A stretch of 48,199 nucleotides of DNA, from the NCBI RefSeq assembly GCF_009496005.1, contig NZ_WIBF01000017.1, forward strand, positions 1 to 48,199, given 5' to 3'. A program made the position numbers and the translations under genes. The stretch comes from Tritonibacter litoralis (GTDB lineage Bacteria > Pseudomonadota > Alphaproteobacteria > Rhodobacterales > Rhodobacteraceae). Below the pieces are notes generated by a model. That model was not told where the DNA came from and made no database searches. It was given only the letters and a program-made list of their open reading frames with translations. Shown piece after piece: positions 7,182-30,528 of this stretch. Positions within the stretch are counted from its first letter, which is position 1; the number at the start of each line of letters is the position of its first letter.

Positions 7182-7272
7182 ATGACCCTTTCTCGATATT
7201 ATATGTCCTTTCTGCGAAATCTCAATCTGTCACACACTGACTAAAGTGCCCAAATCAAAATGGAGCATCGAG
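7182..7272. promoter_or_regulatory. Divergent promoter region, regulator / sox operon
   Basis: This 91-base gap between the divergent GlxA-type regulator and soxB must hold the promoters of both. It is AT-richer than its flanks. A GGAG lies seven bases before the soxB ATG at 7273. I could not define a trustworthy operator dyad by eye. Confidence 0.45.
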
Positions 7273-8523
7273 ATGAAGTTTTCCGGTTTGCGGGTAATCA
7301 AAGAGGCCTTGACGGGTCACAAAGGGTGGAAACCCCTTTGGAGAGATCCTGCGCCCAAGTCACATTATGACTTTGTCATTATTGGTGGCGGCGGCCATGG
7401 GCTGGCGACCGCCTATTATCTGGCAAAAGTGTTCGGCAAGGCCAATATCGCCGTGCTGGAAAAAGGTTGGCTGGGCTCTGGCAATATTGGCCGGAACACG
7501 ACCATCATTCGCTCTAACTATCTCTTGCCGGGCAACCAGCCGTTTTATGAGTTTTCCATGAAACTGTGGGAAAACCTCGAGCAGGAGACCAACTTCAACT
7601 CGATGGTCAGCCAGCGCAGCATCATCAACCTCTTCCACACCGACGGCCAGCGCGATGCCTATCGCCGTCGTGGCAATGCCATGAAATTCTCGGGCGCAGA
7701 TGCCGAACTGCTGAGCCAGGAAGACCTGCGCCAGCTTGCACCGTTCCTGAATTTCGACAACGCCCGTTTCCCGATCAAAGGCGGGCTGCGCCAGTTGCGC
7801 GCGGGGACGGCCCGTCACGATGGTGTGGCCTGGGGTTATGCCCGTGGCGCTGACATGCGCGGCGTCGATCTGATCCAGAACTGCGAAGTCACCGGCATGA
7901 AGATCGAAGGTGGCAAGATTATCGGGGTAGAGACCACCCGTGGCTATATCGGCGCGGGAAAAGTGGGCGTTGCGGTTGCGGGCAGCTCATCCCGTGTGAT
8001 GTCGATGGCTGGAAAACGCCTGCCGATCGAAAGCCATGTCTTGCAGGCCTTTGTGTCTGAAGGTCTGAAACCAACCATCCCCGGTGTCATCACCTTTGGC
8101 GCTGGCCATTTCTATGTCAGCCAGTCGGACAAGGGTGGTCTGGTCTTTGGCGGCGATATCGACGGGTACAACTCTTATGCGCAACGCGGCAACCTGCCGG
8201 TGGTTGAAGACGTGCTGGAAGGCGGCATGGCTTTGATGCCGATGATCGGGCGCGCGCGCCTGCTGCGGTCCTGGGGTGGTGTCATGGATATGTCCATGGA
8301 CGGCTCACCGATTATCGACCGAACCGATGTGGACGGCCTCTATTTCAATGGTGGCTGGTGTTATGGCGGGTTCAAAGCAACCCCGGCCTCTGGCTATGCC
8401 TTTGCGCATTTACTGGCCACAGACACCCCGCACGAGACCGCGACGGCCTATCGGATGGACCGGTTTGCGCGCGGTTATGTCGTTGATGAAAAGGGCGTCG
8501 GCGCCCAACCCAATCTGCACTGA
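7273..8523 (+). CDS. soxB: Sarcosine oxidase subunit beta
   Basis: This is the FAD/FMN subunit of heterotetrameric sarcosine oxidase, which oxidises sarcosine to glycine and passes the methyl group to THF as methylene-THF. The dinucleotide fold is at ~32-60 (YDFVIIGGGGHGLATAYYLA), followed by WLGSGNIGRNTTIIRSNY. The motif ARHDGVAWGYARGA near residue 180 carries His182, equivalent by motif to the histidine that holds FMN covalently in characterised enzymes. The C-terminus has RSWGGVMDMSMDGSPIID and FNGGWCYGGFKATPASG. I chose ATG 7273 (416 residues, close to the usual ~417) with GGAG just upstream rather than the in-frame GTG at 7246. It begins soxB-soxD-soxA-soxG-folD-purU. Confidence 0.95.
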   Translation: MKFSGLRVIKEALTGHKGWKPLWRDPAPKSHYDFVIIGGGGHGLATAYYLAKVFGKANIAVLEKGWLGSGNIGRNTTIIRSNYLLPGNQPFYEFSMKLWENLEQETNFNSMVSQRSIINLFHTDGQRDAYRRRGNAMKFSGADAELLSQEDLRQLAPFLNFDNARFPIKGGLRQLRAGTARHDGVAWGYARGADMRGVDLIQNCEVTGMKIEGGKIIGVETTRGYIGAGKVGVAVAGSSSRVMSMAGKRLPIESHVLQAFVSEGLKPTIPGVITFGAGHFYVSQSDKGGLVFGGDIDGYNSYAQRGNLPVVEDVLEGGMALMPMIGRARLLRSWGGVMDMSMDGSPIIDRTDVDGLYFNGGWCYGGFKATPASGYAFAHLLATDTPHETATAYRMDRFARGYVVDEKGVGAQPNLH

Positions 8524-8535
8524 GGTCTGTTTGCG

Positions 8536-8823
8536 ATGCTAATCCCTCATCCCCTTCTTGGCCTGCGTGACGCGCAGGAATTCACCTATCTTGGCGACGC
8601 GGACCTGATGCTGCGCCCAGATCCCAATGCCGAAGACGCCGAGGCTCAATTCGCCGAATATGTTTATTTGCGCGACAACCCGGCCGGTCTTCACCGCGAA
8701 CTGTGGTTCCACGAACAGGGCGATCGCTCTTGGTTGGTGGTGACCCGCAATACACTGACACATGAGATCCTGTCGGCCGAGCTCGCCAGCGATGTCAAAC
8801 GCAAGATCGGAGTCGCACAATGA
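8536..8823 (+). CDS. soxD: Sarcosine oxidase subunit delta, zinc ligands lost
   Basis: This is the small delta subunit of heterotetrameric sarcosine oxidase, 95 residues, recognised from its position and from YVYLRDNPAGLHRELWFHEQGDRSW. In typical SoxD a CPxCG motif at the N-terminus plus a His and a Cys later (Cys6, Cys9, His59, Cys63 in studied enzymes) bind structural zinc. Here the N-terminus reads MLIPHPLLGLRD, so both N-terminal cysteines are gone. The later Cys is Asp63, and only His59 remains. The protein has no cysteine at all. The reading frame is clean and overlaps soxA by four bases (ATGA), so this is not a frameshift. It is a divergent, probably metal-free, delta subunit. Confidence 0.88.
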   Translation: MLIPHPLLGLRDAQEFTYLGDADLMLRPDPNAEDAEAQFAEYVYLRDNPAGLHRELWFHEQGDRSWLVVTRNTLTHEILSAELASDVKRKIGVAQ

Positions 8824-15500: not shown

Positions 15501-16010
15501 CTATGCTGGAAATCCATGTCGCTGAACCAGCGCCCAGATCTCGGTGTTCAGGCGTTCCAGGTTGGCGATACAGGCGTCGATGTTTTCCGTCTCTTCGGGC
15601 GTTATGGTCTCCATCTTTCCGACTTTGATGTCTTTGCGCCGGTCCTGAATTCGCATCATGATGGTGCGAAGCCGACCCTGATCCGGGTCAAAGGAATAGA
15701 TACAGTGATTGTATTTGTTCCGCAGCGTGGACTGACGTACCAGACGGTTGGTCAGCGCCAGCACCTCGTCACGCAGCTCCTCCTCGACCTTGGGCAGTTT
15801 GGATAGGCGTTCCACCAGATCCACCCGCGCCCGTGTCGTATTGAGGGTCAGGAACAAAACAACTGCCACGTCTTTTTCAACGCCCGCCAGGCCGGCCATC
15901 AAATGGATCAACAGGCTTTCGGTGTTGGTCCAAGTGTAATTTAAGCGCCCGACGCGCAGAAGGATATCATCCAGCTGCACGTCGGACTGAGACCCAGAAC
16001 CAAGCTCCAT
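15501..16010 (-). CDS. Helical protein with HEPN-like Rx4H motif, function unknown
   Basis: I do not recognise a named family. The 169-residue product is mostly helical with no signal peptide or membrane segment. Two features resemble HEPN-type helical bundles: an amphipathic helix pair (residues ~28-72; TESLLIHLMAGLAGVEKDVA, then TRARVDLVERLSKL) and the tract RNKYNH (Arg97 to His102), which fits the Rx4-6H motif of HEPN domains. The start is uncertain. I prefer ATG 16010 because an AGGAG lies nine bases upstream; TTG 16037 and ATG 16034 would overlap the stop of the LuxR gene. Either way it directly follows the LuxR-type regulator and should be co-transcribed. It could be a nuclease, an RNA-binding protein or simply a helical partner; family assignment is tentative. 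Confidence 0.7.
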   Translation of the reverse strand: MELGSGSQSDVQLDDILLRVGRLNYTWTNTESLLIHLMAGLAGVEKDVAVVLFLTLNTTRARVDLVERLSKLPKVEEELRDEVLALTNRLVRQSTLRNKYNHCIYSFDPDQGRLRTIMMRIQDRRKDIKVGKMETITPEETENIDACIANLERLNTEIWALVQRHGFPA

Positions 16011-16033
16011 CGGTTCCGGCTCCTCCCCCCCCA

Positions 16034-16777
16034 TCAATGTTGCATGACTTCAATGAACTTCATCGCCGCCGCAGTGCGGTTGGTCACCTTCAGCTTGGTG
16101 ATGACGTGATGAATATGCAGTTTGATTGTATGTTCTGACACGTTGAGCTTTTCGGCGATCTGTTTGTTCTGCAGCCCGTGCATCACATGTTCCATCACCG
16201 CAATTTCCCGCTGTGTCAGCGTCTCGGCCAAGGTCCGTTTGGCAACATCCATTGCATCGCCATCCCGACGACAGTCCTGTGGTTCTGCCTCCAGCACATC
16301 CGCCGGGAAATAGGTGCCCCCGCTCAGCAACAGGCGCATGACCGCCAGCCATATATCGATGCTCTGGTTCATCGGCAGCACACCCTGGAACCCGTCCACA
16401 TGCCCGACCGCCGCAAAGACCTTTTGAACACAGGTATCATGCATATACGCCAGCACGATCCCCGGTGCCTCTGGTCCGGTAAGCAAAGTCTCCCGTTCAT
16501 TGAGCAATCGATAAAACTGGCTGCGCTCCTCATCCAGTATCGAAGCATCAATGACAATCAACCGCGCTGGAACCATTGTCCCGGATGCAATTTGAATAAA
16601 TTCACTGACTGAATCAAATCGCAATGGTTCGATATCGTCCAGTTCAGCTTCCACATTACGCAGAACGGTATTGGAAAAGCTCTTCTTTGGACCAATAAAA
16701 ACCGCTGTGTCGTAATTTGATTTAAGTTTCTGATGCACCCCCGACGCCATAGTCTCTGAATTGATAATTTCTGGCAT
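16034..16777 (-). CDS. LuxR-family regulator with receiver-like N-terminus (CsgD/VpsT-like)
   Basis: This 247-residue regulator ends in a typical LuxR/GerE HTH (~185-245; LTQREIAVMEHVMHGLQNKQ then IAEKLNVSEHTIKLHIHHV). Residues ~20-160 look like a degenerate receiver domain. RLIVIDASI puts an Asp at the beta-3 phosphoacceptor position, and the domain closes with FQGVLPMNQSIDIWLAVMRL and LLSGGTYFPAD, as receiver domains do. The expected acidic pair after beta-1 is absent (FIGPKKS instead), so phosphorylation is doubtful. This architecture recalls CsgD/VpsT biofilm regulators. The start is ATG 16777 with GGGAG six bases upstream; a frame opening at GTG 16792 would begin upstream of that site. 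It is divergent from the secreted-protein locus at 17465 and is its likely regulator. Confidence 0.87.
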   Translation of the reverse strand: MPEIINSETMASGVHQKLKSNYDTAVFIGPKKSFSNTVLRNVEAELDDIEPLRFDSVSEFIQIASGTMVPARLIVIDASILDEERSQFYRLLNERETLLTGPEAPGIVLAYMHDTCVQKVFAAVGHVDGFQGVLPMNQSIDIWLAVMRLLLSGGTYFPADVLEAEPQDCRRDGDAMDVAKRTLAETLTQREIAVMEHVMHGLQNKQIAEKLNVSEHTIKLHIHHVITKLKVTNRTAAAMKFIEVMQH

Positions 16778-16829
16778 TTCAAACTCCCACACACTCGCTA
16801 CTTCAATCGGCTTTCGCCAAAATAAGTAA

Positions 16830-16872
16830 GGGACTTTATTTTATTCTTGCCACAATAGGAAAATAGAGTCCC
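16830..16872. promoter_or_regulatory. Imperfect 43-base palindrome upstream of the LuxR gene
   Basis: Outer arms GGGACT (16830-16835) and AGTCCC (16867-16872) are complementary and are extended inward by TATTTT and AAAATA. The element lies 53-95 bases upstream of the LuxR-type start. It may be an operator or a 5' leader hairpin of that gene. Confidence 0.45.
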
Positions 16873-17219
16873 CTCCCCCGCAAAACAAGCCACGCCTGTG
16901 AGTATAGAAATCGCCTCTTATAAATTCGGATTTGCGCACAGTCCACGTTATTGTGGCGGCTCCGAATAGGTCAACTAATCCAATGGTTAGCCATCAGGAC
17001 CTTAAGGTTATCCACAGGTTATAGCAATTTTTACGAGTCGTTTCAAATGAGTTCTTTCCATCAAAGGCGTTTATGCAGATTACACTACACAGCCTGATCA
17101 TCATCCATGACGCAACATATTGCTTTTCATGAATAAAAAGAATGTAGCGTAAATCGCAAGTTGGCTTAAATACAATCTCCAGCTTTCGCATGTGCCTGAT
17201 TTCCTCGACCCTGAACCAG

Positions 17220-17240
17220 CTTGTGACCCTTCTTCACAAG
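17220..17240. promoter_or_regulatory. Perfect dyad CTTGTGA-N7-TCACAAG
   Basis: Two perfect 7-base arms flank a 7-base spacer, about 225 bases upstream of the glycine-rich gene. The half-site TGTGA/TCACA resembles CRP/FNR-superfamily sites, but the spacer is one base longer than the usual six. It is a candidate activator or LuxR-type site for the secretion locus. Confidence 0.45.
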
Positions 17241-17464
17241 TTCTTTTTACATCCGCTCAAGCCGATTTTTAGCGGAATCACTTGATCGGATTCGCTAGGG
17301 AGGAAATTAGCATCAACACGAAATCTCTTAATTTGTTAGCCACTCAAAATAATTGAGCCAAGCCGACAAAAGAGGAGAAGCACTTCATTTAACAATCAAA
17401 TCGCTCGACAATGACCGCGTTGGATATACTGGTGGTCGTTCGAGCTCCATTGGGAGATTAAACC

Positions 17465-19222
17465 ATGTCCGGTAATCGGCATAACCATCTGTTTGGCCTA
17501 CAAGGCCAGCTTCAAGGTCAGCTTCAAGGTCAAGGCCAGCACCAAGGTCAGGGCCAGCACCAGGGTCAGGGCCAAGGGCAACATCAGGGTCAGCACAGCG
17601 AAAACCTGAACCTGAACGCCAATGAAGCCCTGAATGGGAACGGAAACCTGAATGGGAACGGCAACCTGAACGGGAACGGAAACCACAACGGGAATGGCAA
17701 CAACAACGGCAATTCCAACTCAAACAGCAACACCAACGACTCAAGCACCGCATCTGACAGCTCCGGACACGGCGCAGGTGCTGGTGCAGGCATGGGTGTT
17801 GGTGCTGGCATGGGTGCTGGCTACGGCGGAGCACATTCTGACTCACATTCCGGGTCGCATTCTGGTTCTGCAGCTCTTGCTGCAACCAAGAACATTTCGT
17901 CAACCTCAGTCAGCAGCCATACAGACGTAGATGTCGACATCGCGATCGACCTGCCAGGATATGAGCCAACTGATGATGATTTTGCGGATTTCGACCTGGG
18001 TCGTGACGCAGAAATCGGTGATATCACCATGGCCAATGGTGACATGAACACCGATATCGGTGGCAACACTGACTTCAACAAGGTGATGAACAATTCCTTG
18101 ACCGGTCAGGGCAACGACACTGGCACCATCAACAACATGAACAACGCGCTGCAGGACAATGATGTCTCAGAGTCTGCAGAAGTGTCCAATGACGGCTACT
18201 TCAAAGCGTACCAAGGTGCCAAAGGCGGCTATGCGTCTTCGGGCGATGGTATCGACAATGAATCCGATGGCGGCGGTGACGGGTATGCCAAGGCCAACGG
18301 CGCTGATGGTGGTAAAGCCTACAGCGATGGTGGTTCGGCTCTCGGCTTTGGTGGCAAACACTATGGCAACGACGGCGGTAAGAGCGAAGGCGATGATGGC
18401 GGAGATGGCGGCAACGCAACATCCGTAGGCGTCGGCCTCGGCGGTCTGGGCGTTGGTGTTGGTGTCGGCGGCAACGCAGGCGACTCCGGTGACGCTGGTT
18501 CCGGCGGCGGCGGCGGTGGCGGCGGTGGCGGTGGTGGCACCGGTTCGACCGGTGACACTGGCCATGCAGCTGGCTTTGGCAAAGGCGACAGCGGTGACGC
18601 AGGCGCAATCGGCGCCGGTCTTGGCGGCGGACATGGCTTCCTGCCATCTGGCCACGGTCTAGGCTGGGCTGATGCCGACAGCGGCAACGCCAACGGCTAC
18701 GGCAAAGGGGCCTCTGGTGACTCCGGCGATAGCGGTGACGCAGGTGACGGCGGTGCCGGTGGTGCAGGCGGCGCAGGCGGAGCATCCGGCTCGTCCGATG
18801 GCGGCTATGCAGGTGGCAAAGGCTACGGTGCTGGTGAAGGCAACGGTCTGGCCAAAGCAATTGCCGGTGACGGCGGTGACGGCGGCGACGGCGGAAACGC
18901 AAGCGCATCCGGCGGTATCGCTGGTGGCGCAGTTGTCGGCGGCGGTGATGCATATGCCCAAGGCGGCATGGGCGGAGCCGGTGGCTGGGCGTCCTCGATC
19001 GGCGGCCAAGGTGGTCAGTCCGGTGGTTACTGGGGGTCCAACAACGGCGATGATGGTTTCGTAACCGGAACCTCAACCGCTTCGGCAGACGCGGCGCTGG
19101 ACAACGCAGCCTTTAACCAGAGCATCGTCCAAGGTGCAAACGTTCTGGGCAATACCGTTGACATGACCGTTGTGGGCGGTGGCTACACCTCCACGCTGAT
19201 CGGCGACGACGATCTTGGGTAA
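17465..19222 (+). CDS. Gly/Gln/Asn-rich repetitive protein, putative type I-secreted matrix protein
   Basis: I do not recognise a named family. The 585-residue product has no Sec signal and is almost wholly low-complexity. Residues ~13-45 are GQ/HQGQ repeats, ~55-90 are LNGNGN/NSNSN repeats, and ~98-140 are Gly/Ala/Ser/His-rich. Residues ~150-265 are acidic and less repetitive (VDVDIAIDLPGYEPTDDDFADF). Residues ~266-535 are a Gly/Asp/Ala-rich array with an 11-Gly run near 348-358. The last ~50 residues are different: non-repetitive and ending GNTVDMTVVGGGYTSTLIGD plus DDLG, a motif that recurs in the next gene's product. GGGAG lies 8 bases before ATG 17465. Position ahead of a type I exporter suggests secretion and a structural, perhaps fibre or matrix, role. 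Large minus-strand open frames inside it are artefacts of GGN codons. Confidence 0.75.
   Translation: MSGNRHNHLFGLQGQLQGQLQGQGQHQGQGQHQGQGQGQHQGQHSENLNLNANEALNGNGNLNGNGNLNGNGNHNGNGNNNGNSNSNSNTNDSSTASDSSGHGAGAGAGMGVGAGMGAGYGGAHSDSHSGSHSGSAALAATKNISSTSVSSHTDVDVDIAIDLPGYEPTDDDFADFDLGRDAEIGDITMANGDMNTDIGGNTDFNKVMNNSLTGQGNDTGTINNMNNALQDNDVSESAEVSNDGYFKAYQGAKGGYASSGDGIDNESDGGGDGYAKANGADGGKAYSDGGSALGFGGKHYGNDGGKSEGDDGGDGGNATSVGVGLGGLGVGVGVGGNAGDSGDAGSGGGGGGGGGGGGTGSTGDTGHAAGFGKGDSGDAGAIGAGLGGGHGFLPSGHGLGWADADSGNANGYGKGASGDSGDSGDAGDGGAGGAGGAGGASGSSDGGYAGGKGYGAGEGNGLAKAIAGDGGDGGDGGNASASGGIAGGAVVGGGDAYAQGGMGGAGGWASSIGGQGGQSGGYWGSNNGDDGFVTGTSTASADAALDNAAFNQSIVQGANVLGNTVDMTVVGGGYTSTLIGDDDLG
17503..17727 (+). 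repeat. In-gene tandem repeats coding GQ and NGN tracts
   Basis: Two degenerate tandem arrays sit in the 5' end of the glycine-rich gene. From about 17503 to 17600, units related to CAAGGTCAG / CAGGGTCAGGGCCAG encode the GQ/HQGQ tract. From about 17629 to 17727, units related to CTGAATGGGAACGG encode the LNGNGN tract. Near-identical units suggest recent expansion and possible length variation between strains. Confidence 0.8.
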
Positions 19223-19240
19223 CCCCTGATAGAAAACAAT

Positions 19241-19271
19241 GCATTGGGCGCGGCATGACCGCGCCCAATGC
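19241..19271 (+). other. Intercistronic 13-bp perfect hairpin
   Basis: GCATTGGGCGCGG (19241-19253) pairs perfectly with CCGCGCCCAATGC (19259-19271) across a 5-base loop. No T-run follows, so it is more likely an mRNA-stabilising or partial-attenuation structure that raises the level of the upstream glycine-rich message over the downstream genes. It also buries the ATG at 19268. Confidence 0.75.
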
Positions 19272-19333
19272 CAACAATAAAGACCGAGCAGCTCGGGCCG
19301 GTGTGTGGCCCACGACTTTATGGAGTTATGCTC

Positions 19334-21361
19334 ATGCTTGACGACAAATCAGAAATTATTGCCCATTTCATTGGAATTTTCGAACTGAACGTCGAAGCCG
19401 CGCGCATGAAGATCCAGTACCAGGAAATGCAGGCCTGGCTATCTCCACAACCCGATCTGGGACCGTTGCTGAACATCACTATCAATGTATCAAGCGCCTA
19501 TAACCTCAGTGATTTTGAACCGGACCTTGGCTGGCGCACAACAATTCCGGCGTCTCCGTTGTTATTTGTAAACACGTCTATTCCGGCCGCACCGGCCTAT
19601 GCGGCGCCTTATGTCTACGACTTCTTTCCAAAACTGTTTTTTGACCCCGCCCTGTTTTCCCCGGTGATCCTGAGCGGTGAGCCGGTATTTTTCATCCAAC
19701 CCCCGTCTTCGGCAGCTTCGATTACGGTCCAGACCAACTGGCTGCAGGATCATGATCTTTTGCTGACTTACGACGCTGGTGTTGAGTTTTTGCCAGCCGC
19801 CAGCTTTGACGCGATGTTGCTGGATCTCGCGGAATACGCGCAAACGCTGCATGTGCTGAACATGCCCGAAATGGCCGAAGACGAAGACTCCATGATCCAG
19901 AATGCCGCTGAGATGCACGAAACACTGGGTCATATTGCGGATCACGGGGTGCCATTGTCGGCAACTGACGCCGACGTTTACGTCGCCCATGGTGACGACG
20001 CTTTAAGCGTGACCGTTAATGGCGCCGCCACGGACGCGTTGACGGAGTTGCCGGAAATAAGCATCCACTTTGCCTCTGAAACATCCGAGGATGAGGATGA
20101 GGAAGACGCGACCGATGGCGCAAAAACCGCTGAAGGCGAAGAGATCACACAAGAATTTGACGGTACACCCGACAGCCCTGATAACGCCGAGGATCCCCCG
20201 CATGAATTGACAACGGGCGGCAACATCGCCTTGAACGAAGCGCGGATCGCGTCGGACTGGCTGGACGCTTCGGTTGTCACTGTGATGGGACATCACGCTG
20301 AAACGATCGCCGTAAGTCAGGTAAATATCTGGAACGACACAGATATCATCAACGGACAAGTTTCCGAGACATCAGAAGGAAGCACCGCTGGGATAAATGG
20401 CTTCTCGTTTGAGATGACCTCGAGTCCAAGGCCTGCTGCTGAAAGCGAAGACGGTGAACCTGGTCCGCCACCTTCCTTTGCCGCAATCACTGAAATCGAC
20501 GGCAATCTCATCAACTACAACTACGTCAAGCAATTCAATTTCGCCTCGGACAATGATGTTGTGAGCGTCCAGTTTGAGGCGCAGGATAGCTATTTCCAGA
20601 CCGGCGGAAACTTCCTGTCCAACGGTTTTGGCCTGCTTGGTCTTGGCTTCCACTACGATCTGATCGTGGTCGGCGGCAATATGGTCGATATGAAATTCAT
20701 TTCACAAACCAACGTGTTGCTGGACTCTGACGTGCTCTATCATCAAGCGGGGTTTGAGGGTTCGATTTCTACGTCGGACAATCTCCTGTTTAACTCAGCC
20801 TCCATCCGTCAGATCGGCACCGACCAGATTGTCGAAATGAACCAGACCTTCGCCGACGCCTCAGAGGCTGTGATGCGCGGGGACACAGATATCGGAGCGG
20901 CGCGCAACGACGAGGCCTTTGTCGGCACAGATCTGCTGCGCATTTTGAACATCAAAGGGGACATCGTTGATGTCCAGATGGTCGAACAATTTAATCTGCT
21001 CGGCGACGCCGACCAAATCGCCTGGGCGTCTGAAACAGCCCAAAGCATCGATGGCGCAGATGTTTCGGTGATCAGCGGTGAGAACGAGCTGATCAACATG
21101 GCTTCGATCATCGACGCTGGCATCGATTCACGCATTTACACAAGCGAAGGAGCCTATACCGAAAGCTTTTTGTACCAAGCCGATTTCATTTCCGAAGAGG
21201 ATCCTGTGCTGGCGGCCGAAAACAGCGGCCTGACCGGAGAGGCGTTTTTGTTCCTGGCGGACGGGTTGATCCCGCAGGACGAAGGCGGTGACGACCATGC
21301 GATTTCAACCCCGCTTCCAACCGAAGTTTCCGTTGATGTCATGCAGTCGGTCCTCGCTTAA
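19334..21361 (+). CDS. Acidic repeat protein of the type I secretion locus, function unknown
   Basis: No family is recognised. The 675-residue product has no signal peptide. Residues ~1-240 are a non-repetitive domain rich in aromatic and Pro residues (MLDDKSEIIAHFIGIFELNV; YVYDFFPKLFFDPALFSPVI). Residues ~245-300 are a strongly acidic linker. From ~313 onward come degenerate ~45-60-residue repeats with the pattern G-N/D-x-V/I-x-x-x-x-V/I-x-Q-x-N-x-x-x-D-x-D, seen at ~316, 389 (DGNLINYNYVKQFNFASDND), 447 (GGNMVDMKFISQTNVLLDSD) and 541 (KGDIVDVQMVEQFNLLGDAD). The last residues are not RTX. I use ATG 19334 with GGAG eight bases upstream; ATG 19328 is also possible, and the in-frame ATG 19268 lies inside the hairpin. 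It stands 21 bases before the exporter gene. A secreted substrate or an exporter accessory protein is the inference. Confidence 0.75.
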   Translation: MLDDKSEIIAHFIGIFELNVEAARMKIQYQEMQAWLSPQPDLGPLLNITINVSSAYNLSDFEPDLGWRTTIPASPLLFVNTSIPAAPAYAAPYVYDFFPKLFFDPALFSPVILSGEPVFFIQPPSSAASITVQTNWLQDHDLLLTYDAGVEFLPAASFDAMLLDLAEYAQTLHVLNMPEMAEDEDSMIQNAAEMHETLGHIADHGVPLSATDADVYVAHGDDALSVTVNGAATDALTELPEISIHFASETSEDEDEEDATDGAKTAEGEEITQEFDGTPDSPDNAEDPPHELTTGGNIALNEARIASDWLDASVVTVMGHHAETIAVSQVNIWNDTDIINGQVSETSEGSTAGINGFSFEMTSSPRPAAESEDGEPGPPPSFAAITEIDGNLINYNYVKQFNFASDNDVVSVQFEAQDSYFQTGGNFLSNGFGLLGLGFHYDLIVVGGNMVDMKFISQTNVLLDSDVLYHQAGFEGSISTSDNLLFNSASIRQIGTDQIVEMNQTFADASEAVMRGDTDIGAARNDEAFVGTDLLRILNIKGDIVDVQMVEQFNLLGDADQIAWASETAQSIDGADVSVISGENELINMASIIDAGIDSRIYTSEGAYTESFLYQADFISEEDPVLAAENSGLTGEAFLFLADGLIPQDEGGDDHAISTPLPTEVSVDVMQSVLA

Positions 21362-21382
21362 AATCACTTAAGGAGCGCACAA

Positions 21383-23425
21383 GTGAAGGACTACCAATCA
21401 GAAGAAACGCAGGGGTTTTCCACTGCGGCCAACAAGAGCAAGTCTTCACAAAACGAAAAGCCGGACACTTTTCGACTGAAACCAGACCAACGTGTTGATC
21501 CTCGAAATGAAGGGCGGATCACTGAAAATTCACCCACAGGGCCAAGCCCAACCGGAGGATCCAGCGCGATACTCAAGAAGATCGCGCCGCCCCCCGCCCC
21601 CGCAAGCTCTGGTGGCAAAGGTGGCGGTGGGAACAAGTTTCACAAACGGGTGCGTTCGGGAGGTTTTGCCGACGGGCTGCAACGCGGTCTCAAAGCCATT
21701 CGCCAAAACCTGATCCTGGTCGGGATTTTCACCTGCGCCACGAATTTTCTGATCCTTGCTATTCCAGTCTATCTTTTTCAGATCTCTGATCGGGTGCTCA
21801 CTAGCCGGTCGATGGATACGCTGGTGATGCTGACCGCTGTGATCGTTGGTGCGGTGGTACTGCAAGCGATCCTGGACGCGGTGCGGCGGTTTATCTTGAT
21901 GCGGACGGCGGTTGAGGTCGCAGCACAATTGGGCGCGCCGATCTTGTCTGCAGCGGCGCGCGCCTCGCTCAACAGCAACGGGCGCGAGTATCAGACCTTG
22001 GGTGACCTGCAGCAGCTGCGCGGTTTTCTGGTGTCGGCGACATTACTGTCCTTTTTGGACGTGCCCTTTGCCCCCTTCTTTATCCTCGCCATTTATTTGG
22101 TGCACCCGCATCTGGGCACCATCGTTGTGGTTACCGCACTGATCCTGTTTGTCATTGCGTTGATCAACCAGCGCATCACCTCGCGCGGGTTTGCCGAAGC
22201 CAACCTGCATCAAAGCCGCGCGAACTTGCATCTGGATTCGATGTCGCGCAACAGCCAGATCATCAACGCCCTGGCGATGATCCCCGAAGCCGTGAACATC
22301 TGGGGGCAAGACACAGCTCGGTCGCTGAAATCTCAGGTCAAGGCGCAGGACCGCAATATTATCACCGCTGCCCTTTCCCGTGCTGTGCGTTTGTTGACGC
22401 AAATCGGCCTGCTGGGCTGGGGGGCGTATCTGGCCATTCAGGATCAGATCACTGGCGGTATGGTCATCGCCGCGTCAATCATCGCAGGCCGCGCCTTGGC
22501 CCCGGTAGAAGGCGCGATTGAAGGCTGGAACCAGTTCCTTTTGGCCCGCGCAGCCTATGGTCGGATCTCAAAACTGCTTCAAAGCTCCCCATTGAATACC
22601 AACCGGTTGATTCTGCCCAGCCCCGAAGGTCGCCTGGATGTAGAGCGGCTGCTGTTTGTCCCGCCGGGCACCAAACGCGTGGTGCTCAACGGGCTCAGCT
22701 TTATGCTGGATCCGGGTGAATCCCTTGCAGTGATCGGCAACTCTGGCGCCGGCAAGACCACGCTTGGTAAAATGCTGGTGGGCTCGATCTTGCCAACTTC
22801 TGGCGCGGTGCGGTTGGATCTGATGGATCTGCGCAATTGGGATCAGCGGCAATTGGGGACCAACATCGGGTATTTGCCGCAGGACGTGCAGCTGTTTCCC
22901 GGCACCATCAAACAGAACATCGCCCGGATGCGCACCGACGTCAGCGACGAGCAGATCCACAAGGCCGCCGTTCTGGCAGATGTGCATGAAATGATCGCAA
23001 GCTTTCCCGAGGGGTATGAAACCATGGTCGCCGCCGATGGGACGCCGCTGTCGGGCGGGCAAAAACAACGGATAGCCCTGGCGCGCGCGTTTTTTGGCGA
23101 GCCGCGCCTGGTGGTGCTGGATGAGCCGAATTCAAATCTGGATACGGCAGGCGACGCCGCTTTGGCGCGCGCCATGAAACATGCCAAGGATCACGGCATG
23201 ACCGTTGTGGTCATCACGCAAAAGCCTTCGCTCCTCAGCGTTGTGGACAAGATCATGCTGATGGCAGACGGCAATATCGCCATGTTCGGGCATCGCCAAC
23301 AAGTGCTGCAGGCTTTGGAACAACGTCGCAAGGGGGGGCCTCAAGCCATACGCCCCAACAATGGTGCAACACCGCAGGCACCGCCACAACAGCAGAACCC
23401 GAATTTGAACCGCCCGACAGACTAA
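21383..23425 (+). CDS. Type I secretion ABC transporter (PrsD/HasD/PrtD-like)
   Basis: This is the inner-membrane ATPase/permease of a type I secretion system. The 680-residue protein lacks a C39 peptidase. Instead it has an unusually long, Ser/Pro/Gly-rich, probably disordered N-terminus of ~105 residues. The transmembrane domain (~110-390) begins NLILVGIFTCATNFLILAIP and includes VYLFQISDRVLTSRS, the class signature. The ATPase has Walker A GNSGAGKTTLG (~452), the ABC signature LSGGQKQR (~556-563) and Walker B LVVLDEPNSNLD (~576). A Pro/Gln/Asn-rich tail follows. Start is GTG 21383 with AGGAG seven bases upstream. It precedes the HlyD-type adaptor by 18 bases. A TolC-type outer-membrane partner is not in the window. 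Likely substrates are the neighbouring RTX protein and perhaps the two repeat proteins. Confidence 0.94.
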   Translation: MKDYQSEETQGFSTAANKSKSSQNEKPDTFRLKPDQRVDPRNEGRITENSPTGPSPTGGSSAILKKIAPPPAPASSGGKGGGGNKFHKRVRSGGFADGLQRGLKAIRQNLILVGIFTCATNFLILAIPVYLFQISDRVLTSRSMDTLVMLTAVIVGAVVLQAILDAVRRFILMRTAVEVAAQLGAPILSAAARASLNSNGREYQTLGDLQQLRGFLVSATLLSFLDVPFAPFFILAIYLVHPHLGTIVVVTALILFVIALINQRITSRGFAEANLHQSRANLHLDSMSRNSQIINALAMIPEAVNIWGQDTARSLKSQVKAQDRNIITAALSRAVRLLTQIGLLGWGAYLAIQDQITGGMVIAASIIAGRALAPVEGAIEGWNQFLLARAAYGRISKLLQSSPLNTNRLILPSPEGRLDVERLLFVPPGTKRVVLNGLSFMLDPGESLAVIGNSGAGKTTLGKMLVGSILPTSGAVRLDLMDLRNWDQRQLGTNIGYLPQDVQLFPGTIKQNIARMRTDVSDEQIHKAAVLADVHEMIASFPEGYETMVAADGTPLSGGQKQRIALARAFFGEPRLVVLDEPNSNLDTAGDAALARAMKHAKDHGMTVVVITQKPSLLSVVDKIMLMADGNIAMFGHRQQVLQALEQRRKGGPQAIRPNNGATPQAPPQQQNPNLNRPTD

Positions 23426-23443
23426 AGCTGAATTGGATATACG

Positions 23444-24802
23444 ATGACCTTTTTGACAATTGATCACGAAGACCCCCAGGACCGTCCAGAGGAATGGTAT
23501 ACAGAACTGCCGCGCCAAGTCTGGCGGATCGGATTTCTTGGTCTGGTCCTGATGCTGGGGGCGCTTGGCGGGTTTGGATATTGGGCATTTTCCGCCCCAT
23601 TGGCTGCTGCGGTCGTGTCCCAAGGCAGCTTTGTCGCCACCGGCCGCAACAAGATTGTTCAACACTTTGAAGGGGGCATTATCCATGACATCCCGGTTTC
23701 AGAAGGGGATTTTGTCGAAGCGGGACAGACGCTGATCTCGTTGGACAAGACAGCTGCCGAAACGGACCTATCCGAGCTGAAACTGCGCCGCGCACGCCTG
23801 AACGCCATGGTGTCCCGGCTGGCGGCGGAATATGAGGGGATGGAGAGCATCGCCTTTACCGACAGGTTGCTGCGCCAGGCGGAACGGGATTTCAATCTAG
23901 CCCAAATCATCGACAGCCAACGGCTAAGCTTTGAACTGACCCGTGAAAAAATGGAAAACGAATTGGCTTTGATTGACGCCAATATCTCGGCTCAGAAGCT
24001 CCGGATATGGGGCTACCGTGAACAGCGCGACGCCTTGAAGCAGCAGATTTCCTTGTTAGAGGACGATCACGCCGCAAAGAGCGCCTTGTTCAAAAGCGGG
24101 CTGACACGACGGACCGAGATCAATTCGCTGCAACGCGCCTTGGTAGACGCACAAGGGCAGATCGCGCGCCTGACTGCTGAGATTGGCGAAAGCGAAACAA
24201 TGATCGGCAAGTACCAAAAACAGGCGCTCCAAACCAGACATGCCTATAATCAGACGGCCCTTGATGAGCTTCAGGCGGCTCAGGCAGAACTGGACAGCAT
24301 CAATGAACAGATCTTGCAAGCCGAAGACATTCTGCGCCGAACCGAAATCGTGGCCCCGGTGTCGGGTACGGTTCTGAGGATGCACTATCATACGCCGGGC
24401 GGTGTCATCAAAGGTGGCAAGGAAGTTGCGGAAATCCTGCCGATGGATGCGCCGCTGATCATCGAAACCCTTGTTCCCAGAACCGAGATCGACAGCGTTC
24501 ATTTGGGACAGCACGCCTTTATCAGGTTGGTCGCTTTGAACCAGCGCACCACACCGGTGTTGGACGGAGAGGTTTTCTATGTCTCAGCCGACTCGATCCA
24601 CAACACCACGGATGTGAAGAACCCAGAGGTCTATGTCGCGCGGATCAATCTTGACCCAGAGAGCATTGCAGAAGTTCCAGGCTTCATTCCCACACCAGGC
24701 ATGCCGGCGGAAATCCTGATTACCACGCAGGAACGCACGTTCTTCCAATATCTCACCAAGCCGATTGTCGACTCGATGTCCCGCGCATTCCGCGAAGACT
24801 GA
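23444..24802 (+). CDS. Type I secretion periplasmic adaptor (HlyD/PrsE family)
   Basis: This is the membrane-fusion subunit linking the ABC exporter to an outer-membrane channel. Of 452 residues, ~28-48 form the single inner-membrane helix (FLGLVLMLGALGGFGYWAF). The lipoyl half-motif HFEGGIIHDIPVSEGDFVEA is at ~69-88, and long coiled-coil helices fill ~100-290. The returning lipoyl half (RRTEIVAPVSGTVLRMHYHT) is at ~300 and the beta-barrel, with TPGMPAEILITTQERTFFQYL, is at the C-terminus, the usual HlyD signature region. The gene lies 18 bases after the exporter gene, and the operon closes with a terminator 12 bases past its stop. Confidence 0.94.
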   Translation: MTFLTIDHEDPQDRPEEWYTELPRQVWRIGFLGLVLMLGALGGFGYWAFSAPLAAAVVSQGSFVATGRNKIVQHFEGGIIHDIPVSEGDFVEAGQTLISLDKTAAETDLSELKLRRARLNAMVSRLAAEYEGMESIAFTDRLLRQAERDFNLAQIIDSQRLSFELTREKMENELALIDANISAQKLRIWGYREQRDALKQQISLLEDDHAAKSALFKSGLTRRTEINSLQRALVDAQGQIARLTAEIGESETMIGKYQKQALQTRHAYNQTALDELQAAQAELDSINEQILQAEDILRRTEIVAPVSGTVLRMHYHTPGGVIKGGKEVAEILPMDAPLIIETLVPRTEIDSVHLGQHAFIRLVALNQRTTPVLDGEVFYVSADSIHNTTDVKNPEVYVARINLDPESIAEVPGFIPTPGMPAEILITTQERTFFQYLTKPIVDSMSRAFRED

Positions 24803-24814
24803 GACAATCCACAA

Positions 24815-24843
24815 GGGCAGGCTACACCACCTGCCCGTTTTTT
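24815..24843 (+). terminator. Rho-independent terminator after the adaptor gene
   Basis: A 7-bp stem (GGGCAGG 24815-24821, CCTGCCC 24830-24836) with an 8-base loop is followed by G and six T. It ends the glycine-rich/repeat/exporter transcript, so the RTX gene has its own promoter. Confidence 0.88.
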
Positions 24844-25305
24844 CCAATCGCTTCGCATTGCGGTCAAAGCGGCCGTTTGGTTTTCACCCGCAACGATTCT
24901 GCGGCAAATCGCGTGAGCTGATGTGCTCATGTTAAAAAACACCCAACGCCCCAAGTGAAACAATCAATTTCCCAAAAACACATAATTTCAAGCCGAACAT
25001 ATACCCAACAAGAAAACGTCACATTATCGACTTAATTCAACCATCAAAAACTTAAAAATCCATCAGCGTCAAAGATCATCAATTATTAACTCTTTGTTTT
25101 TTATACATATAATTAAATTTAGAATTTTAAATGTGCGCAAATTCAAGCCATAATCATGGCGTCAATATGGCGATAAAAAACCAGAAAAATTCATTATTCC
25201 GCTCATCACAAAAACGTCATTGGAGACAAATCTCGGGCACCATTACCCCAGTGTTAGGAATGGTTAATTCCGAAATTAATGCAATATTTCTCAAGGAGAG
25301 AGCCC
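24844..25305. other. AT-rich leader upstream of the RTX gene
   Basis: This stretch is strongly AT-rich, especially 24950-25130. A 60-codon frame starting at ATG 25131 runs past the RTX start but has no ribosome-binding site and is not supported. The AAGGAG at 25293-25298 decides the RTX start. Confidence 0.6.
25086..25113 (+). promoter_or_regulatory. Candidate sigma-70 promoter of the RTX gene
   Basis: TATAAT at 25108-25113 is a perfect -10 hexamer. TTAACT at 25086-25091 (four of six matches to TTGACA) lies 16 bases upstream. Transcription from about 25120 would give a leader of roughly 185 bases. AT-rich sequence produces chance matches, hence modest confidence. Confidence 0.45.
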
Positions 25306-28300
25306 TTGAATAAGATTATTAAAGAATTTGAATCAGAATTCGAGATCGGCCAAAGCAGCTCGGAAACTCTTATTAACGCAGAGGGCCAGACCAAAGAAGT
25401 AGAGCCCGAAACATCTGAAGCAGATAGCTTCTTACTAGGAAATGCTAATAGCGTATCCACGCTGTCTACAAATGGTGAATTCGTGGACGCTCAAGCCGGT
25501 GAAGACGTCGTTGTTGTTGACGCTGGCGACACCACTGGTGGCATTGACATCTCCAGCATTCCTCGTTTCTCGGCGCTTGGCCGCGAGCTGGGCATCAACG
25601 CTTCAAACAGCGGTTTTTTGTTTTATGATCGCGGCGCAACCGCACAGTTCGGTGACCAAACGGTTACCGCGAACTTCCACTCTTTGAACAACAATGTCGC
25701 CAATCGCGGATCCGATGCCTTGCTGTCGTCGACCGCATTGGAAACCTCGCTCGAATTGGCAAGCCTTGCCGTAAACATCGAAGGTATTGTCGCCACTGAC
25801 GGCAATGATCGCTACTTTGGCTATCGTGAGGACGCGATTGTCTATGGCGGTGACGGCCGGGACTTCTTCCGCTCTCTGGGTGGGGACAAAGAGCTCTATG
25901 GTGAAAACGGCAACGACCGCTTTTTTGTCCGTGGCGGTGACGGTGCCTTTCTTGATGGCGGCAATGGCAACGACCGCGCCTCCTTTGTCAATGAATCCCA
26001 AGGGCTGGTGATCGAATCCATCGGACGATACGGCGCATTGGGTCGTGAGCTGGAATTGGCACGATCGGATAAAGCTTATTCGGTCTATCAGCGCGGCGCG
26101 ACGGCCGAGTTTGACGGGCAAACAGTCAATGCGCGTTACGGTGTGATCAACAGAAATCACCTCAGAGGTTCCGACGAGCAATTGTCGGATTCCGCGCTCG
26201 ATACAGCGCTGGAATTTGGCCATGTGACCCGCGACATCGAAAAGATCATCGGTAGCCGCCACAATGACAGCTTCTTTGGTGGCCGGTACGACGACCATTT
26301 CCATGGTCAGGCCGGGGATGATTGGATTGACTCTCGTGGCGGTGACGACACCATCAAAGGTGGTGCGGGTGATGACCGGATTGTGCTGACAACTGGCAGC
26401 AATGACATCGACGGCGGATCCGGTGTCGACCAGCTTTGGCTGCGTGGAACGGCTGATGACTTTGTCGTTGTGGCCGAAGCAGACGGTTCCTTCTCAATCA
26501 CAACCGCGGCTGGTGAAACCAGCACGGTACGCGGGGTCGAACTGGCCCGTTTGGCTGGCGGCGAAACTGTTTCCTTGCAAGACTTGGCCAGCGGTGCGGT
26601 TGTAGACCCATCGCCAACTCCGGCACCGACACCGACCCCAGATCCGGAGCCGACCCCAGAACCCACACCTGCGCCCACACCGGCACAGGCTGCAGACGAC
26701 ACGGGCACGGTCGCCGAGGACAGCGCGGTTGTTCTGGATCTGTTGGAAAATGACACTGGCGAGGGGCTGACGATCACTGCCCTTGGCACCGTGGAAAATG
26801 GCACAGCCGAGCTGAATGCAGATGGCACCGTGACCTATCGCCCTGCCGCAGACTTTAACGGCACCGACAGCTTCACCTATACGGCGACCGACTCCAATGG
26901 CCAGACCGTGACTGCCAGTGTTTCGGTTGTGGTGGAACAGGTCAATGATGCGCCCTTTGTGGCTGCAGCTGAGGTGACCGTTTTGGAAAACGCCGATGCC
27001 GGTGATGTGTTGGCCCAAGTGACCGCCAGCGACGTCGAAGGCGATGCGCTGACCTATGCGATCACAGGCGGCAACGAGGACGGCCTGTTTGAAATCGACG
27101 ACACTGGCGCGATATCTTTGTCGGATGGATCTGGGCTCGATTTTGAAACGGCACCTGTGCATGACCTTGAAATCTCGGTCAGCGATGGTGTGGCCAGCAC
27201 CGCTGCAAACGTGACCGTGAATGTCACAGATGTAGATGAAAGCCGCAGCGAGTTGATTGCCAGCACTGACCGTGCCTTTGGCGTGGACAATGGCTCGGGT
27301 TCGGTTGGTCTGACGGGTACGGCGGACTACAGCTCGCAATTGCCTTTCCTCGACATATTCAAATCCAGTCGACCCGTAAAAGCGCACGCGCCGGGTGAGT
27401 TCGGGACTTATGATTACGCTGAATTGCGTGAGGAAGGTTATCTCGACGACAACGGCTGGCCCACCGAAATCCCTGAGGACGCGCCAACCATCGGTTTCAT
27501 TTTCTCGGACACGATCGGACGCGAGGGCACTTATGTGCTGCGTTACGAAGGTGAGGGCGAAATCGACTTGCGCTTTGATGCCAATATCATCAGCCAGAAA
27601 GATGGCGAAATCGTCTTTGAACATGGCTCAGGCAGCTTTGAGGTGCTCCTGCGGTCAACCGACCCCAACGACACCGGCGATTACATCAAGAACATCAGCA
27701 TCGTGAAGGAAGAGTACGTCGATCTCTATGACGCTGGCGCGACCTTCAACCCGGATGCGCTGGATGTGCTGGCGGACTTCCGCGAATTCCGCACGATGGC
27801 CTGGCAGCGCACGATTGAATCGCCAATCGAAACCCTGGACGATCTGCCCTCACTGGAAGAATCCTCCTGGGCAACCGAATATGGGGTTCCTATAGAAGCC
27901 CTGGTTCAGCTTTCAAACGAAGCGGGCACTGATCTGTGGATTACAATCCCGACCAAGGCAAACGCCGATGTGATTGAACATTATGCGACCTACATCCGCG
28001 ACAACCTGGATCCGAACCTGAAAGTCACCGTGGAATACGGTAACGAGCTTTGGAACTATGGCTATCAGGACACCCATGATCTGCGGGCCGAGGCGATTGA
28101 AGCCTGGAACCTGGATCCCGGCGACAACGCATCGCGCTTCGCTTACATCACCTCCAAGGCGGCTGATGTAGCGCTGACGTTCAAGGAGATCTTTAACCAG
28201 GTCGGCGAAGATGAACGCCCACTGTTGCACAATACTTTGGGTACCCAGTCGGCGGTTCCAAGCGTCACCGAAGCCCTGTTGCGGGCGGATGCGTGGCAGC

Positions 28301-30528
28301 TGAATGATCCGGACAACTTTATCCCGCCAGAAGAGATCTTTGACTCGATTGCGGTGACCACCTATTTCGGCGGCGCAACCCTGACCCGCGACGAGCTGCG
28401 CGCGGATCTGATCGAGGCAATCAACGATCCGGACGTGGACGCGCAGGCCTTCCTGTTCGAGAAACTGAACGATCCGGATTACCCGTTCTCGATCCCGGCA
28501 ACAGGCGAGTTTCTGCGTGAGCAGAAAGAGATCGCCGATCGCTATGGGCTGCAGGTCACCGACTATGAAGGTGGCGCGCACCTGCTGCACTTTGACAACA
28601 CCAACCTGCCGCAGGAGACCGTTGAACAGCTCGAAGGGTTCTATGTGGACTTCTACCGCAGCGAATACATGCGGGAGCTGTTCCAAGGTATCTGGGACAT
28701 CTGGCGTGAGGTTGGCACCGGTGCCTTCACCAACCACGGCTCGGTGGGCGAACCTTCTCGCTATGGTTTCTTTAGCTTCCTGTCGGATCTCAATGACACC
28801 AGCCCGCGTGCGGAGTTCCTGTGGGAGCAAAACGCAAGCCAGGCTCCATGGTGGGAGGATCGCGGTGGCGAGCATTTCCAGCAGGGTGTTATTGAAACCG
28901 GCACCGATGGCGAAGATCTGTTGATCGGCACAAACCAGGAAGATTACCTGAGTGGTGGTGACGGCAATGACTATATCGTGGCCGGTATCGGTGATGATGG
29001 GGTCAACGGTGGTGAGGGGGTTGATACCATCCTCTTTGCCGGGTCGCGCAGCGAATATGACATCTATCGCGACGGAGATGCGGTGATCTTCCGCCATGCA
29101 GATGGCACGGACACCGTGTTGAATGTCGAAGTGGTGGAGTTCGAAAGCGGCGAGATCTTTGACATCGAGGATCTGGTCAAAGGCGATGGCATCGCAAACG
29201 AAGGGCCGGTCGCTGCGGCAGATCATGTGGTTGTGACCGAAGACAACAACGCCAATATCACCACGCTTCTGCTGAACGACAGCGATGCAGATGGGGGTGA
29301 GTTGGTCATTGTCGAAGTTGGCGAAGCGGAGCATGGCACCCTGCGTCTGGAAGCGGATGGCAGCGTGACCTACATCCCGGATCCGAACTATGAAGGTCCT
29401 GACAGCTTTACCTATGTGGTCTCTGACGGCACCGACCGCAGCTCTGCCACGGTGACGCTGACGGTTGTGAACGAAGCCGATGCGCCCACGGTGATCAGCC
29501 GCCACCTGACGGTCTTTAACGAAGACTATTCTGCCGGTGATCTGATCCATCAGGTCGAAGCAGATGATCTGGATGGCGATACGCTGACCTACAGCATCGC
29601 GGGCGGCAATGACGAGGGCCTGTTTGCCATCGACGCCGAGACCGGTGCGGTCACCACAACGGCCAAGCTGGAAGAGGATGCCTCGGTTGGGATTGCGACC
29701 CATGATCTGGAAATCGCAGTCAGCGACGGCAGCTTTGTCACCACATCCACGCTGACGGTAGAAGTCCATCAGGAAGCCAACCTGATTTCGGAAACCGACG
29801 TTGTGGGTGAAGTCCTGAATGGCGGCAACGGTGGCAGCGATGTGCTGCAGCTGACGTCGACAGACGGGTTTGGCCGTATCCTTGGCTCGCTGAACAGCTA
29901 TGGCGGTCAATTTGCCGAACTGCTGAACCAGGACATCGTGGCGGATCGCTCTGCCTCGGCGCTGCAGATCTATTCCTCGCGGTATGAGCTGGATGACGAC
30001 AGCGGTCTCACAGCCGGAGAAGCACGGGGTGAGGAACTGGATGTCGCGTTGACGGCCTCGAACTTTGCGGTGAACTTTGAAATCGTAGTCGGGACCGAGT
30101 ATTACGACACGCTGTTCGGCTCCAATGCCAATGACACATATTATGGTGGCGGCGGCTCTGACTTTATCACCGGTCGCGGTGGTGAGGACATCCTTGTCGG
30201 CGGCGCAGGCAATGACAACATCTTTGGCGGTGCGGATGCAGATACCTTTGTGTTCGACAGCTTTGACGGTGTTGATCGGCTGCGCGACTTCTCCTTGGAA
30301 GACGGGGATCAGCTTGATGTTTCTGCCCTGTTGACCAACTTTGACGGGGATGTGAGCGCCATTGGCGACTACATCGCGCTTGGGGTCAATGAGGCAGGGG
30401 AACAAACCCTGGCCGTCAGCGCAAATGGGGATGGAACCTTTGTCGATGTGGCAACCTTTGCCCAGGACAACGGGTTCACAACCACCCTGGCGGAACTCCA
30501 GGACAACAACAGCATCCTGTTCGTTTAA
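25306..30528 (+). CDS. Giant RTX/cadherin-like protein with embedded glycosidase-like domain
   Basis: This 1740-residue protein has the architecture of a type I-secreted, calcium-binding extracellular enzyme. From the N-terminus: module 1 (~78-172) plus RTX-like repeats; module 2 (~234-325) plus RTX repeats ([13 protein letters not shown]); a Pro/Thr linker (~435-461); a VCBS-like domain (~462-549) and a cadherin-like domain (~551-646). Residues ~650-1195 form a barrel-like domain with [14 protein letters not shown] (Asn913-Glu914) and [13 protein letters not shown] (Glu1088), candidates for the acid/base and nucleophile of a clan GH-A-type glycosidase. Then come RTX (~1196-1290), VCBS-like (~1296), cadherin-like (~1395), module 3 (~1492-1606), RTX ([20 protein letters not shown]) and a T1SS C-terminal target domain ending NNSILFV. 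I use TTG 25306 with AAGGAG seven bases upstream; ATG 25279 would lie upstream of that site. It follows the exporter operon. Confidence 0.9.

Follow-up and report, generated by a model that had tools for sequence, protein, structure and literature searches.

A conserved six-gene locus of Tritonibacter litoralis and its relatives that may encode type I export of a two-protein surface coat or matrix

Background

What is built by six adjacent genes of Tritonibacter litoralis that place two repeat proteins directly ahead of a predicted type I exporter? These genes, here called P1 to P6, occupy positions 15501-24802 of contig NZ_WIBF01000017.1 (assembly GCF_009496005.1; positions 1-48,199, the whole 48,199-nucleotide stretch that was analysed, hereafter the window), with P1 and P2 on the minus strand and the others on the plus strand. 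Taking the whole explanation jointly, we consider it moderately probable that P1 to P6 and the leader hairpin of P3 form one functional unit: a so far undescribed type I system that would export the two proteins of a surface coat or matrix. No description of the P1-P6 locus was found in the open-licence literature among the matches listed, as judged by title and the start of the abstract.

The locus is common to many marine relatives of T. litoralis; roughly a sixth of the order's sampled genomes carry P4, and relatives were also found on plasmids. Here a known export machine is paired with two protein families absent from Pfam and NCBIfam; two putative regulators and a structured leader that Rfam does not list complete the set. 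The host group is known for life on algae and surfaces. If the reading is correct, the locus would be a surface-building system in this group, and also a compact example, open to genetic tests, of how a secreted structural protein is controlled after transcription.

Gene order and co-occurrence

P1 (15501-16034, minus strand) encodes a 177-amino-acid (aa) helical protein, and its ATG shares bases with the stop codon of P2 (TGATG). P2 (16034-16792, minus strand) encodes a LuxR-type regulator and is separated by a 672-nucleotide (nt) intergenic region from the divergent genes P3 to P6. These are P3 (17465-19222, plus strand), a Gly/Asn/Gln-rich repeat protein with a conserved C-terminal block; P4 (19334-21361, plus strand), an acidic beta-rich repeat protein; P5 (21383-23425, plus strand), a PrtD-type type I secretion permease/ATPase; and P6 (23444-24802, plus strand), a HlyD-family periplasmic adaptor. 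The open frame of P4 spans 19268-21361, with the conserved start more likely at 19334, giving 675 aa. Gaps within P3-P6 are 111, 21 and 18 nt, and a single transcript for these four genes is plausible.

A survey of 292 genomes of the order (112 genera) was carried out using a P4 profile and a profile of the P3 C-terminus. P4 was present in 50 genomes from 26 genera, including three of the five genomes of the window's own genus, and the P3 profile matched 49 genomes, all within those 50. P3 lay upstream of P4 on the same contig in 49/49 places, at a distance of less than 200 nt in 48 of them; in genome G176 a weak and partial P3 match lay approximately 1.1 kb upstream of P4. P1 was found in 48 of the genomes with P4, and a relic of it in G056. 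This relic belongs to a remnant locus (L107, G056:C11:176000-194000) that retains a full-length P2 match, 33 residues of P1 with a stop and fragments of P6, with no match to P3-P5, which suggests that the middle genes were lost by internal deletion.

In a class-wide draw of 385 genomes, P4 was found in two, the window's own and a member of another family (G475). The latter locus (L106) carries P1, two tandem P3-like genes, P4, P5 and P6, with no P2 match in the fetched stretch; its tandem genes (7012-9006) encode Gln/Gly-rich proteins of 281 and 277 aa and precede P4.

For synteny, 49 other P4 loci, four named loci and the window were compared; one locus (L072) repeated another (L011) and was dropped, leaving 53 distinct loci. 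The loci in this set, which were chosen by P4, contained P5 and P6 in all 53 cases, P3 in 51, P2 in 50 and P1 in 49, and the order of P1 and P2 divergent from P3, P4, P5 and P6 was retained across them. P1 lies partly or wholly beyond the fetched stretch in L046 and L070. P5 is split in L069, and L069 and L071 gave no P1, P2 or P3 match at the thresholds used; both loci look decayed or divergent. Named relatives obtained from one scan were Epibacterium ulvae 4A10, an uncultured Rhodobacteraceae, Tritonibacter aquimaris SM1969 and Cognatishimia sp. SS12.

Relatives were also found on 32 plasmid records, including rhizobial, Paracoccus and Sulfitobacter plasmids, with the entire core on plasmids of Paracoccus ferrooxidans and Sulfitobacter indolifex. 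Sinorhizobium meliloti Ak57 pSymB carries P2, a short P3-like gene (a weak match, expectation value (E) 0.0017), P4, P5 and P6, with P1 moved behind P6, and Ensifer adhaerens pA carries P1 and P3-P6. On the S. indolifex plasmid pDSM14862_b (L100) the core lies amid glycosyltransferase, galE, UDP-glucuronate decarboxylase and DUF3131 genes; the window has no such polysaccharide setting. An apparent P3-P4 gene fusion on a Rhodobacter sp. CZR27 plasmid (L102, 4581-9134, annotated as 1517 aa) was rejected: the P3 C-terminus lies in another frame, and the annotation therefore spans a frameshift.

An initial reading of the window from its sequence alone (the first-pass annotation) had taken the regulator, both repeat proteins and the exporter to be one unit, and had asked whether the repeat proteins occur scattered without the exporter. 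All of the genes that it named are present where it placed them, and the co-occurrence and synteny described above bear this grouping out. Its boundaries held for P2 to P6; P1 (which lay inside its range), the leader hairpin and a TolC-family neighbour had been passed over, and the RTX gene that it included at the downstream end (P7) did not keep its place.

Exporter and candidate cargo

P5 scored 712.9 bits against the PrtD model (TIGR01842, cut-off 510.15) and P6 scored 379.9 bits against the HlyD model (TIGR01843, cut-off 208.65). Walker A and LSGGQ motifs were present in 53/53 P5 homologues and a strict Walker B pattern in 38/53, and no peptidase C39 domain was among the Pfam matches of P5. 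By sequence, the exporter itself is of the ordinary PrtD/HlyD type. A TolC/OEP-family gene lay 1-216 nt from one end of the core in 10/53 loci, with five cases on either side; the single such neighbour tested scored 104 bits against Pfam OEP. A gene of this family was the only function-linked one recurring at the core edges. Among open reading frames (ORFs) of at least 90 aa, no other conserved neighbour was found apart from group-specific flanks, and the remaining flank gene clusters recur mainly inside single groups of related loci. The window copy of the core has no abutting TolC-family gene in a search that covered the locus neighbours and not the rest of the genome. The same genome encodes another exporter-like protein with 37% identity to P5. 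The locus of L046 (G277:C2:311482-331481) is followed by another exporter-like pair, a P5-like protein of 554 aa (161 bits) and a P6-like protein of 441 aa (76 bits).

P3 is composed of 30% Gly and 9% Asn and has no Cys. P4 is acidic (16.6% D+E, 2.6% K+R), has 0-3 Cys among its 53 homologues and contains internal repeats (hhalign E 2e-19). Neither protein matched a Pfam or NCBIfam family up to E 0.1, 28 P4 homologues gave no Pfam match up to E 0.01, and RTX nonapeptide calcium-binding repeats were not found in P3 or P4 with Pfam. A whole-protein fold search of P4 returned nothing significant. A shared ancestry of P3 and P4 found weak support in motif similarity and was not adopted.

Because of the family membership of P5 and P6, they would be expected to work with a TolC channel in type I export, carrying P4 and most likely P3 across the envelope without a Sec signal; as judged by eye, Sec signals are absent from both proteins. 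Strict co-occurrence and gene order point to P3 and P4 as the cargo of this exporter, P4 more safely than P3. A loose C-terminal pattern, D-x-M-Q-S/T-x-L-A, ends P4 in 48/53 homologues (DVMQSVLA in the window) and follows a tail with a predicted local distance difference test (pLDDT) score below 50 in the predicted structure; this conserved extreme C-terminus would serve as the export signal. Three of 38 listed P4 homologues are annotated as 'type I secretion protein'.

Among the closest known systems are type I exporters of the PrsDE/PrtDEF type, which secrete Rhizobium Rap proteins and proteases. Rap proteins, which are PrsDE substrates, are reported to take part in biofilm matrix development (PMC9298526). 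The likeness lies in P5 and P6, each above its family cut-off, and in the lack of a peptidase C39 domain. The present locus differs in that P3 and P4 have no RTX or cadherin-like domain in Pfam, and in having a dedicated LuxR gene, a HEPN-like gene, a leader hairpin and two candidate substrates encoded before the exporter.

A putative structured leader at the 5' end of P3

Folding of the region upstream of P3 gave a similar two-part hairpin in many loci. In the window it lies at 17397-17450 (plus strand), with an outer stem (17403-17408/17440-17445), an inner covarying stem (17411-17418/17432-17439) and a conserved loop. A hairpin model was trained on 28 of 36 hairpins chosen by a script requiring the stem and loop motif. 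Eight were left out: L046, L048, L051, L052, L068 and L070, all judged spurious; L084; and L012, which repeats L009. In seven of these sources the element was afterwards recovered by the model, at a different place for L046, L048, L051, L052 and L070. In L068 a second model found a hairpin (E 0.0023), also at a different place and just before a likely P3 start, which strengthens the leader argument slightly.

Across 58 sources (1.13 Mb, both strands), the hairpin was found at E <0.02 in 47, once in each and always at the 5' end of P3, and the next match was at E 0.45. Eleven sources had no hairpin at this threshold, among them L068. When 45 hairpins were compared with the longest P3 frame, 30 ended 0-23 nt before it and 15 overlapped its first start by 3-69 nt; the P3 genes of the latter likely use a later start. 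In the plasmid loci L100 and L102, 14 nt separate the hairpin from the annotated gene. On whole genomes the model matched 39/292, 37 at the locus; the two other matches (G143, G172) fall within open frames belonging to other genes, probably by chance.

Pairing of the inner stem was complete in the fitted alignment (229/229 cells, with 58 double changes), and neither figure was reached in 500 shuffles (means 83% and 12). Sliding the partner strand by 1-3 columns reduced pairing to 21-78%. G-U pairs make up 20 of the 229 cells, the outer stem has weaker support than the inner one, and a loose loop consensus is kept in 46/47 hairpins. Two points weaken the leader argument slightly: the number of inner-stem pairs with a double change (five) was equalled in 15/500 shuffles, and the 19 of 47 hairpins outside the training set are nevertheless its relatives (17 compared, closest training element 0.69-1.0 alike). 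A conserved peptide at this position was rejected: the three frames are open in 21, 21 and 5 of the 47 hairpins and none is open in eight, so the stops leave no common peptide. Positions 16700-19400 of the window gave no Rfam match up to E 5 against 4227 models.

Because of the covariation, the hairpin is best read as an RNA control element that would add post-transcriptional control of P3. An alternative that we doubt but take seriously is that it is no RNA switch and acts either as a P2 operator in the DNA or as a plain stem that stabilises the mRNA: the hairpin is a dyad in a divergent intergenic region, and a 5' stem close to a strongly expressed gene may do no more than shield its mRNA. 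Against an operator, the arm sequences vary with pairing kept, the G-U cells break DNA symmetry and close relatives have a separate sequence-conserved dyad; the loop consensus also speaks against this alternative. After these arguments, the element may still be a plain stability stem.

A second hairpin, of 13 bp, occupies the gap between P3 and P4 (19241-19271, plus strand) and has no T run after it on this strand. The folding z-score of this gap was below -2 in 44/51 loci (60 mononucleotide shuffles each). We infer an mRNA-stabilising or attenuating element, which would help to make P3 in excess of P4-P6.

The putative regulators P1 and P2

P2 matched the GerE helix-turn-helix (HTH) model with 69 bits. 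CsgD is a LuxR-type regulator, and W[FLM][TS]R is the cyclic di-GMP (c-di-GMP) motif of VpsT. A comparison of P2 with CsgD and VpsT, drawn in the first-pass annotation, held for the LuxR-type HTH and failed beyond it: the CsgD model (NF007505) gave 43.3 bits against a cut-off of 250, over HTH residues 186-243 only, and the VpsT motif was present in 0/50 P2 proteins. Given the divergent synteny, P2 probably regulates the locus and would control transcription from the divergent intergenic region.

An inverted repeat in this region, TAATCCAATGGTTA (16976-16989, consensus TAACC-N4-GGTTA), is conserved in sequence among close relatives, where it lies 175-215 nt away from P2, and is a candidate operator. 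With zero or one mismatch, the consensus occurred in 9/50 intergenic regions compared with 0.75 in mononucleotide shuffles, an enrichment that is partly circular as the consensus came from an alignment of seven close relatives. In a k-mer scan, the P2-P3 intergenic regions showed no more than modest enrichment. One 9-mer, TTATCCACA (17008-17016), resembles a DnaA box. It occurs 207-266 nt away from P2 in 7/50 of these regions, those of the window and six other loci, compared with 0.18 expected from mononucleotide shuffles.

HEPN proteins carry a motif of the form R-x4-6-H, of the R-N-x-x-x-H type. P1 has the matching sequence RNKYNH; an R-x4-H motif was found by script in 49/49 P1 homologues, and R105, N109 and H110 are invariant in a 40-row alignment. 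The AlphaFold2 model of P1 is a compact helical protein, with helices mostly at pLDDT 96-99, and fold comparison with HEPN was suggestive only. Weak profile matches to Csx1/Csm6 (CARF+HEPN) were obtained for 2/40 P1 members (best E 0.0016), and to Csx1 for 1/40. P1 resembles HEPN proteins in being helical, in its motif and in these weak matches. It differs from them in having no Pfam family above cut-off (nor any HEPN family among the Pfam matches of 40 members), in having no HEPN relative or anything else relevant by sequence in the PDB, and in having a LuxR regulator as its partner. P1 is a HEPN-like protein that possibly acts on RNA. From its co-occurrence with the locus and the HEPN-like motif, our guess is that the leader RNA would be its target.

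A surface coat or matrix and its alternatives

Outside the cell, the Gly/Asn-rich P3 would be the bulk subunit and the beta-repeat P4 a folded partner or nucleator of a surface coat or matrix. We infer this role from the repeats, the composition, a hairpin layout that possibly favours P3 and the one copy of the locus that lies among polysaccharide genes.

It is possible, on the unlikely side, that P3 and P4 cover the cell, in place of a fibre or biofilm matrix, as an adhesin or surface-layer (S-layer)-like coat that mediates attachment to algae or surfaces. Surface layers and adhesins are among the known cargoes of type I exporters, P4 is acidic with few or no Cys, and the plasmid-borne S. indolifex copy has polysaccharide genes around it. 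Set against this, P3 and P4 carry no RTX or other Pfam/NCBIfam domain, and the locus in the window is flanked by metabolic and transport genes.

A bolder extension of the coat-or-matrix reading would make the locus a new class of amyloid-like surface fibre, with a Gly/Asn-rich subunit and a beta-repeat nucleator, secreted by a type I rather than a curli- or Fap-type route, and with output set by a new leader RNA under the HEPN-like P1; we regard this as unlikely. Curli repeats have conserved Gln, Asn and Gly (PMC3521004), and to that extent the locus is alike in having repeat proteins rich in Gln/Asn/Gly with a LuxR-type regulator nearby. It differs from curli in having a type I exporter beside P3 and P4 and in a P2 that falls below the CsgD cut-off; a P4 fold match to CsgA was not significant. 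CsgE, CsgF and CsgG were not among the 29 window proteins scanned with Pfam, a scan that did not extend to the rest of the genome.

That the locus encodes a contact-dependent surface bacteriocin like Cdz, whose exported proteins would aggregate on the producing cell and kill its neighbours, with P1 as an immunity or control factor, seems quite unlikely. This Caulobacter system combines a type I system with a pair of glycine-zipper proteins, one of which, CdzC, forms aggregates at the cell surface (PMC5380434); the paper looked for small proteins close to the exporter, indicates a presumed leader peptide and describes an immunity protein that is small and transmembrane (PMC5380434). P3 and P4, too, form a pair, partly Gly-rich, encoded next to a type I exporter in an alphaproteobacterium. 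They are, however, far from the small Cdz proteins in length (465-1632 aa among P3 homologues and 511-1250 aa among P4 homologues), no leader peptide was seen by eye, P1 is predicted to be a compact helical protein in place of a small transmembrane one, and no conserved immunity gene was found among neighbouring ORFs of at least 90 aa; a smaller immunity gene may be present.

The downstream RTX protein P7

It is very unlikely that P3, P4 and an RTX enzyme are co-exported as one matrix system, as the first-pass annotation had proposed: P7 (25279-30528, plus strand) does follow P6 on the strand of P3-P6, both in the window and in the three relatives closest to it, and does have a type I C-terminal domain, but no P7 match above 400 bits was found in 49/53 loci (some fetched stretches ending early), its middle-domain family is present in 116/292 genomes of which 17 have P4, and a 70% identical copy of that domain is encoded elsewhere in the same genome (G000:C5:124015-125649, within a 1734-codon frame on contig 5).

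P7 begins 477 nt past the end of P6. The gap holds a terminator-like hairpin (24815-24836) and a promoter-like site (25086-25113), and such sites are no commoner in the region than in shuffles. The gene flanks the core in 4/53 loci, those of the window and these three relatives, two of them cut by contig ends. With its family common without the core, P7 was rejected as a core part and is, on sequence grounds, a later neighbour.

P7 is an RTX/cadherin-like protein with a large middle domain and seven HemolysinCabind stretches. Its type I C-terminal domain, also part of the earlier description, was confirmed (T1SS_VCA0849, 19.3 bits, cut-off 17.6), with a length of 1749 aa from the first start in place of the 1740 first given. 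The label 'glycosidase-like' was dropped: P7 matched no glycoside hydrolase (GH) family in Pfam, and in NCBIfam only an EglC endo-glycanase model at 43 bits (cut-off 700), over the RTX repeats. Residues 655-1200 had no solved relative by sequence. A Y-G-N-E-L-W-N stretch is reminiscent of clan GH-A enzymes, with no family match behind it. Named P7 homologues are mostly annotated as calcium-binding, RTX-related, tandem-95, Ig-like or hypothetical proteins. An 890-codon open frame runs antisense to the P7 gene (27913-30585, minus strand) and is most likely a by-product of repeat codon bias.

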